Below are positions 11,649-57,119 of a stretch of 64,000 nt of DNA, in pieces (the stretch's first letter is position 1; each line of letters begins with the position of its first letter). Origin of the DNA: Olsenella sp. An270 (GTDB lineage: Bacteria; Actinomycetota; Coriobacteriia; Coriobacteriales; Atopobiaceae); assembly GCF_002159735.1 (NCBI RefSeq), contig NZ_NFJF01000004.1, positions 62,001 to 126,000 on the forward strand, given 5' to 3'. The notes below the pieces were generated by a model. That model did no database searches and was not told the origin of the DNA. It saw only the letters and a program-made list of their open reading frames with translations. A program made the translations under genes and the position numbers.

Positions 11649-11682
11649 CGTGCTTTGCGCACGAGGTCCTTCTCGCCCAGCG

Positions 11683-11823
11683 CGTCCTGAAAATCGGGCC
11701 TGCGGCACGTCCTTCTCGCCCGGCATCCTGAAATTCAAGGCTGCGGCACGTCAGGCGCGCCGCAGGCCCGATTTTCAGGACGGAGGAGAGAGGGAGCATG
11801 CCGCAGGCCCGATTTTCAGGACG
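11683..11823. repeat. Mirrored repeat array, 41-bp period, 2+2 units
   Basis: Left units at 11683-11707 (CGTCCTGAAAATCGGGCC + TGCGGCA) and 11724-11748 (a diverged copy) face right units ending at 11782 and 11823 that read TGCCGCAGGCCC + GATTTTCAGGACG. Both pairs are centred on 11753 and units are 41 bases apart on each side. The rplL-rpoB spacer is 463 bases long and holds, in order: the rplL terminator, this array, two CGAGAAGAAC motifs (near 11885 and 11920), and the rpoB promoter. Confidence 0.85.
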
Positions 11824-11964
11824 GGGGCGGGACGTGGTTAGACGAGCGGTCGTCGACCGTCACCGAACCTCCACAACATGCGTGGCCGAGAAGAACGTTT
11901 GTGCAGGTAGATTGGGCGAGAAGAACGGGCTACTAAAAACCGTCGCGCAAGTCAAGCGTTTTCG

Positions 11965-15563: not shown

Positions 15564-19985
<4,422 letters not shown>

Positions 19986-20007: not shown

Positions 20008-20083
20008 GGGGCGGCCTCGTCCTTCTCTCCGGCTCAGCTGAGCTTCGCTCAGAATTCGCCGGCGAGAAGGGCGGGGCCGCCCC
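20008..20083 (+). terminator. Long hairpin after rpoC
   Basis: A 26-base arm (20008-20033, GGGGCGGCCTCG + TCCTTCTCTCCGGC) pairs with 20058-20083 (GCCGGCGAGAAGGG + CGGGGCCGCCCC), 23 of 26 matched. The loop holds a second hairpin, CTGAGC-TTC-GCTCAG. No T-tract, so it may be a Rho-independent barrier or a processing site. Confidence 0.65.
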
Positions 20084-20100: not shown

Positions 20101-20394
20101 TCGCGGTCGTCTAAGAAGTGCCGCCCTTGTCCGGGTCCGTTCCGATAATCGCCGCCCTTGTCCGCGGCCGCTCTAGAAAAACTCGCCCTTGTTCGGGCTC
20201 GATCTAGGAAATCGCGGGGTTGTACAGCTCCAGACCTATTCGGCAGTACAAGGGCGGGAATTCCTAGACGCGTCCACGACAAGGGCGGCGTTTCCTAGAA
20301 GGACTGCCGACAAGGGCGGGGATTCTTAGAAGGTCAGCCGACAAGGGCGGTGATTTCTAGAAGGTCAGCCGACAAGGGCGGCGATTCCGGGGCG
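20101..20394. repeat. Mirrored repeat array, 31-bp period, nine units (4+5)
   Basis: Five plus-oriented units start at 20247, 20278, 20309, 20340 and 20371, exactly 31 apart. Four inverted units end at 20131, 20162, 20193 and 20224, again 31 apart. Consensus is GACAAGGGCGG, any base, GATTTCTAGA, then about 9 variable bases. Everything is mirrored about 20235.5, where TTGTAC faces GTACAA. The array fills the 409-base spacer between rpoC and the convergent birA, whose stop codon abuts the last unit. No gene or T-tract is seen. Innermost inverted unit has CCCC in place of GGGC; others are well conserved. Confidence 0.9.
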
Positions 20395-21111
20395 TTAGTC
20401 GAGCGGGCGCAGGGAGGAGAGCTCGGCGGCGTACGCGACGCCTTCCACGACGGCGCGGCCCCAGGGGTCGACGGTCTCGAGCGTACCGTACGCGAGCAGG
20501 GTCTTGCCGTCGTTTGCGAGCACGCGGACCTCCTCGCCCAGCCAGGCGAGGCGGGCGAGGTAGTCGTCGCGGATCCCGTCGAGCGGCCAGTCGCCACGTG
20601 CGGTCGCCCATGCGCTGACGCGCTCGGAGATCCCGTCCCGCAGTGCCTCGGCGAGCTCGGGGAGGTCCGGAACCTCCCCCAGCTCTGCCAGCGAGATCGC
20701 CTCCAGGCCCCGCGGCGCCCGCCTCACGTTGACGCCCACGCCGCAGACGGCGAAGAGCCGGTCGTCACGGTCGCGTGCGGTCTCGACGAGGATCCCGGCC
20801 AGCTTGCGGCCATGGGCGAGAACGTCGTTGGGCCACTTGAGCGAGGCGCCGCGCAACACGTCGGTCACACCCAGGCCGCAGGCGGCGGCAAGCCCCATCA
20901 CCCGGGCGGGCGTGACCTCGGGCCTCAGCACCACGGACAGGTAGAGGTTGCCCTCGGGCGACTCCCAGACGTGCCCGCGTCGCCCGCGCCCCGCGCTCTG
21001 GCGTCGCGCGGCGACCGCGGTCCCGTGCGCCGCCCCGGCGCGGCCGAGTGAGAGCGCCTCGTCGTTGGTGGAGCCAACCTGGTCGAGCATGGTGAGCGGC
21101 CGTTGCGTCAT
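20395..21111 (-). CDS. birA: Biotin--[acetyl-CoA-carboxylase] ligase
   Basis: 238 residues from ATG 21111 (MTQRPLTMLDQVGSTNDEAL); an in-frame GTG at 21159 would add 16 residues. Activates biotin with ATP and transfers it to the lysine of AccB. Catalytic features: GSTNDEA, the biotin loop GRGRRGHVW (about 43-51), LKWPNDVL (~95-102), KLAGILVE, and GVGVNV (~125). It lacks an N-terminal winged helix, so it is a class I ligase with no repressor domain. It is divergent from the fatty-acid operon that encodes its substrate. Confidence 0.93.
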   Translation of the reverse strand: MTQRPLTMLDQVGSTNDEALSLGRAGAAHGTAVAARRQSAGRGRRGHVWESPEGNLYLSVVLRPEVTPARVMGLAAACGLGVTDVLRGASLKWPNDVLAHGRKLAGILVETARDRDDRLFAVCGVGVNVRRAPRGLEAISLAELGEVPDLPELAEALRDGISERVSAWATARGDWPLDGIRDDYLARLAWLGEEVRVLANDGKTLLAYGTLETVDPWGRAVVEGVAYAAELSSLRPLD

Positions 21112-21148
21112 GATCGGGCCCCGTTCGTCGTCGTTCCCCTGGGGAGAT

Positions 21149-21257
21149 GTTAACGTCACCCATGTGTAGACCTCGTGGCAAAATGCCCCGGTCGGACGAT
21201 AAGCGCCACGGGGGATTCATGTTTTGATAGTCTACACAGATGTTGACGCGTTAACAA
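21149..21257. promoter_or_regulatory. Palindromic birA/fabH intergenic control region
   Basis: GTTAACGTCAC..CATGTGTAGAC (21149-21171) faces GTCTACACAGATG..GACGCGTTAAC (21230-21255), an inverted repeat centred near 21202, with an inner pair CGTGGC/GCCACG. On the minus strand TTGTTA, 17 bases, TAGACT (21257 down to 21229) is a good promoter for birA. The plus copy places TAGACC at 21167-21172, but its -35 spacing is poor. Two inverted copies of one site between divergent lipid genes look like a shared operator; the regulator is unknown. Confidence 0.65.
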
Positions 21258-30497: not shown

Positions 30498-31303
30498 TCA
30501 CCGACTCCACCTGCGGCCTCACCCGCAACGAGGCGGCCGAGCTCGGCGTCGACGTCCTGCCGATGGGCTACGCCGCCGCCGGGATCCGCCACGCCGAGGG
30601 CTTCGTCGGCGAGAACGGGGACTACGCCTCCGCGCTCTCCGCGGGCGGTCTCGTGACCACCGAGGCCGTGCGCCCGTCCGCCTTCGAGCGCGCGTTCCGC
30701 CGTCACCTCGACGCGGGCGACGAGGTGCTCTGCATCACGATCTCCTCGCGCCTCTCCGGCACGCACCGCAGCGCCGAGCAGGCGGCGGAGGCCGTGGCCG
30801 ACGCGCGCGTGACCGTGTTCGACTCCTGGGAGACCGCCGGCGCGCTCGAGTTCCTCGTCCGTCGCGCCCGTGCGCTCGCCAACGCGGGGAGCTCCGTCGC
30901 CCAGATCGTTGACGAGCTCACGGCGCTGCGCGCGTCCACGCGCATCGTCTTCTCCGTGCCCGACATGTCCGCGCTCTCCCGCAGCGGCCGTCTCGGCGCG
31001 ATCCGCCGGGCGGTGGCGACCAAGCTCAACCGCTACCCGGTGATGGCCCTCGGCGAGGGCGCCATCGTCAAGCTCGCCGACGGCCGAGGCGCCCGCGGCA
31101 TGGCCGCCGCGATGGCAGACCAGGTCCCGGCCGGGACGACCGAGCTTCTCGTCTCGCACTTCGGTCCGCGTGGGGTCGAGGCGCGCGAGGTCCTTCTCGC
31201 CGCCCGCGAGCGCTTCCCGGAGGCCCACCTGCGCGTCAAGGACGGCGGCCCCGTGCTCTCCAAGCACCTCGGCCTCGGCGCCGTCGGCCTCTCCTGGGCC
31301 TAG
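30485..31303 (+). CDS. DegV family fatty-acid-binding protein (FakB-like)
   Basis: 272 residues; ATG 30485 inside the end of accDA. LALVTDSTCGLT opens the fold; TISSRLSGTHRSAEQAAE (~81) holds the Ser that hydrogen-bonds the fatty-acid carboxylate; a conserved RSGRLG lies near 162. DegV/FakB proteins present exogenous fatty acids to the kinase FakA for phosphorylation. Being the last gene of the fab operon supports a lipid role, though FakA is not in this window. Confidence 0.88.
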   Translation: MLALVTDSTCGLTRNEAAELGVDVLPMGYAAAGIRHAEGFVGENGDYASALSAGGLVTTEAVRPSAFERAFRRHLDAGDEVLCITISSRLSGTHRSAEQAAEAVADARVTVFDSWETAGALEFLVRRARALANAGSSVAQIVDELTALRASTRIVFSVPDMSALSRSGRLGAIRRAVATKLNRYPVMALGEGAIVKLADGRGARGMAAAMADQVPAGTTELLVSHFGPRGVEAREVLLAARERFPEAHLRVKDGGPVLSKHLGLGAVGLSWA

Positions 31304-31328
31304 CGGCCCCGTCGACCGGCCCCCACGT

Positions 31329-31457
31329 CCTTCTCGCCCCGTCGCCCCGCTCTCAAATAACACGCAGAATTACCTTCAACAACATATATCCGCAGGAAAG
31401 TGTTTCGGAAAAGTCCAATTCTGCGTGTTATTTGAGTGGGGCGACGGGCTGAGAAGT
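31329..31457. repeat. AT-rich palindrome between degV and rpsL
   Basis: An exact 18-base inverted repeat, CAAATAACACGCAGAATT (31354-31371) against AATTCTGCGTGTTATTTG (31417-31434), is extended outward by GCCCCGTCGCCCC against GGGGCGACGGGC and CCTTCTC against GAGAAGT. The centre is near 31394 and the core is far more AT-rich than the surroundings. The 374-base spacer then holds two CGAGAAGAAC motifs (near 31475-31500), an ATGGATACG element and the rpsL promoter. Confidence 0.8.
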
Positions 31458-56973: not shown

Positions 56974-57119
56974 GAGGTTATGCAACACGTCTGAGGTTAT
57001 GCGACATGCGCTGAGGTGAGGTTATTCTCGCCAAGCGCTTTACCTGCCGCTTCGTCGACGAGAGCGATGTCGCATAACCTCCAGGATGCCGCATAACCTC
57101 GGAGGGGCCGCATAACCTT
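56974..57119. repeat. Mirrored repeat array, 19-bp period, 3+3 units
   Basis: GAGGTTATGC at 56974 and 56993, plus an altered copy at 57013-57026 (TGAGGTGAGGTTATT), face GCATAACCTC ending at 57081 and 57100 and GCATAACCTT ending at 57119. The right-hand units are 19 apart, as is the first left pair. Outer and middle pairs both centre on 57046.5. Two direct copies of GGCGAGAAAGACCCGCGC (57138-57155, 57157-57174) follow. The array lies in the 286-base truA-permease spacer. Confidence 0.85.

Follow-up and report, generated by a model that had tools for sequence, protein, structure and literature searches.

What is the mirrored repeat array that fills the gap between rpoC and birA in Olsenella sp. 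An270: a phased site for a protein, or a template for a folded RNA? The window analyzed here is the whole 64,000-nucleotide stretch (contig NZ_NFJF01000004.1, positions 62,001 to 126,000), in which rpoC and birA form a convergent pair around the array. The two gene names come from the preliminary description of this DNA and are consistent with the translations. The features of the locus, in window coordinates, are as follows.

15564-19985, plus strand: rpoC, the upstream neighbor, an open reading frame whose C-terminal part was aligned with relatives.
20008-20083, plus strand: terminator-like hairpin behind rpoC, distinct from the array, with 26-nt arms that are 88% complementary (inverted-repeat search).
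20110-20224, minus strand: left arm, four inverted 22-bp units (20110-20131, 20141-20162, 20172-20193 and 20203-20224) in 31-bp steps (sequence reading, matrix score, inverted-repeat search).
20225-20246, no strand: central gap between the arms, 22 bp, or 44 bp start to start (matrix score).
20247-20392, plus strand: right arm, five direct 22-bp units starting at 20247, 20278, 20309, 20340 and 20371, in 31-bp steps (sequence reading, matrix score, Tandem Repeats Finder).
20395-21159, minus strand: birA, an open reading frame whose stop codon lies 2 bp from the array.

The preliminary description claimed nine mirrored units with an exact 31-bp period in the rpoC-birA gap, and both sequence reading and matrix scoring bear this out. 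The nine 22-bp units of the array at 20110-20392 follow a lattice of exactly 31 bp; four of them are inverted and the other five direct, and the mirror axis lies at 20235.5, the midpoint of 20224 and 20247. The repeat finders suggested as a check agree: Tandem Repeats Finder reports period 31 in both arms, at 20153-20211 and 20248-20388 (score 182), and the inverted pairing was recovered independently by the inverted-repeat search. An Rfam scan of the window returned five tRNAs only, so the array matches no known RNA family. Hairpins similar to the one behind rpoC can be read by eye in relatives.

The window array belongs to a set of about forty 31-bp arrays in its genome (2.01 Mb, referred to as G000). 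The consensus of the 22-bp unit, GACAAGGGCGGCGATTCCTAGA, has two conserved blocks, at about positions 1-9 and 14-22, and the 9-bp spacers between units have almost no information content. With up to three mismatches allowed, this consensus has 202 matches in G000, compared with 0 for the reversed control pattern, which excludes a chance occurrence of the unit. Counting arrays of no fewer than three units, we found at least 38, all of them intergenic, and this number is a lower bound because only about half of the match places in G000 were listed. An array lies no more than a few hundred bases from some of the ends of contigs C7, C9 and C10; the repeats therefore probably interrupt the assembly and cause some arrays to be missed.

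Across 140 genomes of the family, the unit is matched 157 times in G107, 99 in G113, 90 in G086 and 10 in G091, and at most twice in all others. Thus, among 30 other Thermophilibacter genomes, three carry 31-bp arrays genome-wide and a fourth carries two arrays. An exact scan of one genome per species (84,980 species) returned 12 stretches in four assemblies: Atopobium sp. UBA1382, an uncultured Olsenella bin, 'Olsenella uli' An820 and Thermophilibacter provencensis. The viral contigs, phages and plasmids searched contained no match to the array; a phage, plasmid or viral origin was rejected on this ground and because two proteins of the family described below have no relatives in viral contigs. 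The two arrays of T. provencensis (G091; L066 10390-17493) lie about 7 kb apart around what appears from the translations to be a sugar-uptake (PTS) gene cluster. Their neighbors match those of two G000 arrays at three of the four sides tested, so a transferred segment carrying arrays is possible in this genome. Among the open-licence papers listed by searches on Coriobacteriia repeats and on helically phased intergenic repeats, none describes such arrays. The abundant intergenic TAACTGA direct repeats of Beggiatoaceae, as given in the accessible passages of PMC4679880, are a different case.

The geometry of the array was examined in 94 arrays from five species, picked from the listed matches as a non-exhaustive sample. 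Adjacent units on the same strand are exactly 31 bp apart in 569 of 600 steps. At the minus-to-plus junctions (n = 97), the 44-bp center recurs in 71 cases, and 13 more measure 75 bp, which corresponds to one missing unit. Deviations from the lattice of 3 bp or more number 12, and 11 of these measure 9-12 bp, approximately one helical turn; some of the 12 depend on weak units, and merging orthologs leaves about eight independent loci, seven of them at a turn. The units of the 31-bp array all face one side of the helix.

With respect to genes, the arrays lie close to 3' ends. In G000, the distance from array to gene 3' end has a median of 24 bp (45 cases), with the outer unit overlapping the stop codon in 6 of the 45, whereas gene 5' ends are at least 59 bp away in all 28 cases. 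According to the genes from our own gene caller, the neighbors of 39 clusters in G000 are oriented ++ in 13, +- in 11, -- in 8 and -+ in 3, and one neighbor is missing in 4. Where an array lies no more than 45 bp from a gene end (n = 29), a recognized terminator precedes the array in no case and follows it in three, and a terminator-like match occurs inside the array in 12. When the gene end is farther than 45 bp away (n = 14), a terminator lies between in nine, and 13 of 57 gene ends without an array have one. The genes beside the arrays do not form one functional class: 24 of 30 scanned belong to varied families, and six have no family at E 1e-8.

This location, together with the mirrored layout, raises the alternative of an RNA or cruciform hairpin, in which the arms would pair once transcribed and either terminate transcription in both directions or serve RNase III as a substrate, with the 31-nt step merely keeping the internal loops symmetric. 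The RNA of the window array folds far better than its shuffles (z -7.4), and both the short distance behind gene ends and the terminator pattern around them would suit such a role. However, the array RNA still folds because its arms are inverted copies of one unit, and the compensatory pairing between arms that serves as the criterion of a structured RNA is absent in the spacer and register tests. In 34 G000 arrays, the spacers match in register at 0.324, no more than the 0.326 obtained with arms swapped between arrays (sd 0.015); the cores reach 0.720 in their own array versus 0.697 with swapped arms (sd 0.010), and other registers of the same array give 0.695-0.715. Over 82 arrays, the spacers match at 0.343 in register versus 0.363 out of register, the cores are not clearly register-coupled (0.678 versus 0.669, P 0.11), and the lengths of the two arms show no correlation (Spearman -0.05, P 0.63). 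The slight self-complementarity of the 22-bp center (0.410 versus 0.369 in the control, sd 0.016) points the other way. The arrays of a second family, X1 (described below), are even asymmetric, 10 of 23 clusters having the five-unit layout 41-62-34-41 or its reverse, which also speaks against a hairpin. Because the spacers do not pair between arms, the arm lengths are independent and 11 of the 12 larger deviations equal one helical turn, the constraint appears to lie on double-stranded DNA rather than on an RNA hairpin. On the spacer and register tests we reject the hairpin as the selected feature, and we regard the terminator or RNase III account as improbable. Of the two possibilities raised in the preliminary description, the phased protein-binding array is favored by the 31-bp steps, by the helical deviations and by the 10.4-bp period found in 24 related protein groups (see below), and the hairpin, as the object of selection, is not upheld.

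The arrays also persist at corresponding sites in different species. For 30 of 38 G000 arrays, an array in a relative adjoins at least one homologous neighbor (at least 45% identity, paralogs included). In 45 array pairs with both neighbors matched, using those with a standard center, core identity is 0.700 and spacer identity 0.387, compared with 0.335 for the spacers of random pairs. Thus, the unit and the spacing have been kept and the spacers almost randomized, which we count in favor of selection acting on unit and length in the 31-bp arrays.

The rpoC-birA junction itself is more variable. The preliminary description had made the absence of the array from close relatives a sign of neutral decay. 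By that measure the outcome is mixed. At the corresponding loci of 29 relatives, some of them incomplete, the array is kept in three (G107, G086 and G113, all of which have the partner gene described below), and none was seen in the other 26, which carry mirrored elements of other types, a terminator alone, or other genes. In six relatives (L121, L125, L128, L129, L134 and L135), the gene adjoining birA is a distant member of the nuclease-like family discussed below, and an inverted element of the CTTCTGTAC type with a GCAGGT center, read by eye, lies between the two. At the G113 junction (L117), three 31-bp arrays follow one another, and the second and third recur at a distance of 287 bp, a tandem duplication of the whole element. 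The birA tree places G097 beside G000 and the rpoC tree does not; because of this disagreement birA may have moved, and it was not used as a species tree.

Which protein could recognize the unit is suggested by a gene outside the window.

G000:C1:127515-128600: partner gene, 362 aa from its likely start (P0002 denotes its 288-residue part as first called), with 31-bp arrays on both sides.

In each of the four array-rich species (G000, G107, G086 and G113), 31-bp arrays enclose this gene on both sides. Its orthologs are 85% identical in G107, 85% in G086 and 82% in G113, and the best homologs in other genomes reach at most 72%. It is not the only gene in such a position: L102:3215-4498 (G000:C10), coding for 427 aa with the Pfam domain S1CSD-TOTE-2, also lies between two 31-bp arrays, and the matching site in G113 has a single array between the corresponding outer neighbors.

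The partner protein belongs to a large group of relatives. All 31 genomes of the genus have 5-13 matches each to P0002, and the family is present in 107 of 197 genomes sampled evenly from the class, scoring being capped at 10 candidates in many of them. An alignment of 34 members conserves SPE, SP.E, GG, PD, Y.G..H and D..R, with a C-terminal pattern of E, PD, (E/D)Y.G, H and D..R; E181, D225 and H249 are among the conserved residues. The restriction endonuclease (REase) model MTES_1575 matches 10 of the 34 below threshold (best E 0.011). Among 10 distant members, one lies just above the DUF559 cutoff (20.7 versus 20.6 bits) and a second has an MTES_1575 match that stays below the cutoff (E 3.8e-5). 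The family thus resembles DUF559 and MTES_1575 in its C-terminal pattern and sub-threshold matches; it differs in that only one scanned member reaches a Pfam cutoff, in its N-terminal half, which has no Pfam match among the members scanned, and in that its genes are flanked by their own repeats. PHROGs and PADLOC contain no family for the protein, NCBIfam none of use, and a search of solved structures returned one insignificant row (E 0.33). Judged by its sequence, this is an undescribed and unnamed Coriobacteriia family with weak PD-(D/E)XK similarity, and a PD-(D/E)XK nuclease origin is likely.

We propose that the 31-bp array is the cognate, dispersed target site of the 362-aa protein, a reading to which we assign a probability of roughly 70% and which is based on position, species distribution and co-divergence. 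Each protein of the family would bind its own unit of 20-26 bp, bound copies would line up next to each other along a single face of the DNA, and at the center of the array a pair of these protein rows would meet head to head. A protein-coated array at a gene end might then act as a two-way transcription block or a domain boundary, a role that location makes conceivable and that we consider rather doubtful.

The proposed pairing of protein and unit can be followed in other arrays of these genomes. At the rpoC-birA junction of G097 lies an array of the second family, X1 (GTTGCGNNNNNGGGGGTYRTGGCA), with steps of mostly 41 and 62 bp and a 34-bp center, again near whole turns. The X1 unit has 115 matches in G097, 73 in G112, 59 in G091, 9 in G084, 5 in G111, 3 in G095, 2 in G096 and 1 each in G094 and G108, and 0 in the four species rich in the 31-bp array. 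A P0002 homolog stands between two X1 arrays in all three species tested (G097, G091 and G112). Within G000, some paralogs are flanked by repeats of their own, two of which recur in the window.

11683-11823, no strand: mirrored array of another family, unit CGTCCTGAAAATCGGNCCTGCGGCAC, in 41-bp steps; the same repeat flanks the paralog at G000:C9:17569.
31359-31429, no strand: inverted pair of AACACGCAGAATC, 58 bp apart; the same word and spacing occur on both sides of the paralog at G000:C1:467493.

The paralog at C7:369505 is flanked by GCGAACCCAAACCG, and two others tested in G000 (C14 and C3) have no such flanking repeat.

When the proteins are sorted into ortholog groups, unit and protein appear to change together, G087 and G091 being counterexamples. 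Members of the 31-bp group are 78-82% identical in the alignment and have a common unit, as do the X1 proteins of G097 and G112 (81%). In the CGTCCTGAAAATC group, the proteins of G000, G110 and G111 are 72-75% identical and the unit has 10, 7 and 8 matches, respectively; 1-3 matches also occur in G092, G093, G104, G108 and G113, outside the genomes in which an orthologous gene was established, which counts against the pairing. The CGACTTGGCAGA group has proteins 77% identical between G107 and G113 and unit matches of 23 in G113, 21 in G086 and 16 in G107; a further 12 in G000, likewise outside the genomes in which an orthologous gene was established, are to be read against a higher background. 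The ortholog in G098 has diverged further (66% identity in the alignment, 72% in the search) and is accompanied by a related unit, GGAAGGNCNCCGATTCCGGGA, in 40-41-bp steps. This unit has 45 matches in G098, 46 in G087, 8 in G111 and at most 2 elsewhere. The best partner homolog in G087 is only 52% identical, so these are arrays without an ortholog, and an array family can therefore exist without its gene. Similarly, G091 has its two 31-bp arrays with a best partner homolog of 53%; in G111, a 71% homolog is accompanied by few arrays. A GGTTATGC element considered as a genome-wide replacement of the 31-bp array in G110 was rejected as low in copy number (33 matches in G110 and 19 in G000, chance matches included).

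To quantify how general this arrangement is, we counted 10-mers found in both 600-bp flanks of a gene with at least three copies and scored a gene as positive at three or more such words. By this measure, 33 of 57 family genes are positive, compared with 9 of 235 like-sized other genes of the genus (P 3.5e-20), and mismatched flanks give 4.5%. In an enlarged locus set, the positives number 41 of 57 among members from the genus and 9 of 35 among members from elsewhere, the latter also exceeding the controls (9/235, P 8e-5); 16 of 57 and 26 of 35, respectively, do not pass. An earlier, cruder flank statistic placed 16 of 40 family genes above the 95th percentile, compared with 5% of 93 other genes.

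The spacing of these repeats also mostly follows the helix. Clustering at 65% identity gave 68 protein groups, of which 34 have a positive member and 24 have measurable same-strand copy distances. Taking one value per group for these 24, the strongest period between 6 and 20 bp is 10.4 bp, the helical repeat of DNA (mean cosine 0.68 versus -0.04 for random offsets, sd 0.12). The fit exceeds a cosine of 0.5 in 19 of the 24 groups and is poor in the other five. Common steps are 21, 31, 41-42, 52-53, 62, 73 and 84 bp; misfit steps of 29, 36, 38, 60 and 75 bp are also present.

The known system that comes closest is that of RAYT genes and REP sequences. The accessible passages of PMC2817692 describe RAYT genes as always flanked by two REPs with which they co-evolve, REP abundance following the gene, and there and in those of PMC3116915, RAYTs belong to the IS200/IS605-related tyrosine transposases, and the REPs are palindromic. 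The arrays studied here are alike in that a dispersed intergenic repeat stands on either side of a gene (four of four species for the 31-bp family and three of three for X1) and in that repeat and protein appear to change together. Abundance follows the gene in the 31-bp and X1 families, except for the two G091 arrays, and does not do so in G087. In contrast, the members scanned have no Pfam match to an IS200/IS605-related tyrosine (HUH) transposase at the thresholds used and show weak PD-(D/E)XK (REase) similarity instead. The 31-bp and X1 units are asymmetric, whereas REPs are palindromic, although the repeats of some other paralogs are palindromic too. Furthermore, the repeat here usually consists of several units set on a helical lattice, and its spacers are noncomplementary. 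Our reading, by analogy, is that the system may work like RAYT/REP with unrelated parts rather than belong to the same family. That the nuclease-like protein once spread its arrays, or still keeps them, as is thought for RAYT with REP, is a tentative suggestion to which we give slightly less than even odds.

For the possible mode of action alone, the stoperators of mycobacteriophages offer a comparison. In the accessible part of PMC9283540, these are asymmetric sites, many per genome, at which the bound protein stops transcription elongation. The 31-bp units are likewise asymmetric and numerous, but the stoperators considered there lie in a phage genome, whereas the units here form phased arrays on the host chromosome and are accompanied by a nuclease-like protein. 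The evidence that bears on a roadblock of this kind is the location of the 31-bp arrays.

On balance we favor, with less assurance than the pairing of the 31-bp array with its protein, a system extending through the class Coriobacteriia. In it, a large nuclease-like family would have members that each read their own long, asymmetric word in one-faced, helically quantized, mirrored arrays at gene ends, an analogue of RAYT/REP built from unrelated parts and comprising dozens of protein-site pairs. If true, this would be a second, independent form of partnership between a gene and a dispersed repeat. It would provide a readable code, many paralogs in the same genomes each being paired with a separate site. 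The arrays would further offer a natural test of how phasing along the helix builds up a protein row on one side, and the family would be a source of proteins that are specific for 20-26 bp. Many of the odd intergenic repeats in these gut bacteria may be accounted for in this way as well.

Other explanations were weighed against the proposed target site. MITEs are short, dispersed, mirrored elements between genes, and the 31-bp arrays resemble them in these respects; they could be old non-autonomous transposons, in which the ends of a vanished element have been joined and which no longer play a role. The recurrent five-unit layout of X1, which looks like two joined ends, and the whole-element tandem copies at the G113 junction would fit this origin. 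However, no conserved motif is found beyond the outer unit in 185 flanks and no target-site duplication in 91 arrays, and transposon ends were rejected for this reason. The 25 longest array-to-array matches are only 70-80% identical, and the arrays occupy the same gene junctions across species with nearly randomized spacers and conserved cores, so we consider a MITE-like origin unlikely. It is also improbable, in our view, that the arrays bind another conserved protein, such as a nucleoid or supercoiling factor in the manner of BIMEs, with the family genes merely lying in array-rich spots. The location at gene ends does resemble that of BIMEs, and G087 has arrays without the gene. Against this, many paralogs have their own repeat in both flanks, far above other genes, and within G000 the unit differs between paralogs. 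An addiction pair would have the arrays titrate a putatively toxic nuclease, or mark self-DNA for it, so that gene and arrays are kept together. The conserved nuclease-like residues and the state of G110, which lacks 31-bp arrays and has a best homolog of 53%, agree with this idea; the arrays without a gene in G091 and G087 weigh against it, and it is only the reverse case that titration allows less easily. We therefore give the addiction pair a low probability as well.

In addition to the arrays, three further repeats were noted. In G097 (L171, L175-L178), many near-perfect intergenic palindromes have AAAGGGGACAGGC-like arms and represent a different repeat class. At window 56975-57118, mirrored tandem GAGGTTATGC units lie about 19-20 bp apart around a center with TTTACCTGC, an element of low copy number in the genus. 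The word GGCGAGAAGRAC plus a final G, with one mismatch allowed, has 24 matches in the window, compared with 0.8 expected, at sites including 20018-20073, 11665-11927 and 31189-31338. Its exact copies in the G000 loci examined number 35 in 45 kb of intergenic DNA versus 21 in 221 kb of coding DNA. Across the genus this word is found again both in terminators and in arrays, and it is perhaps an uptake-signal-like or terminator word.
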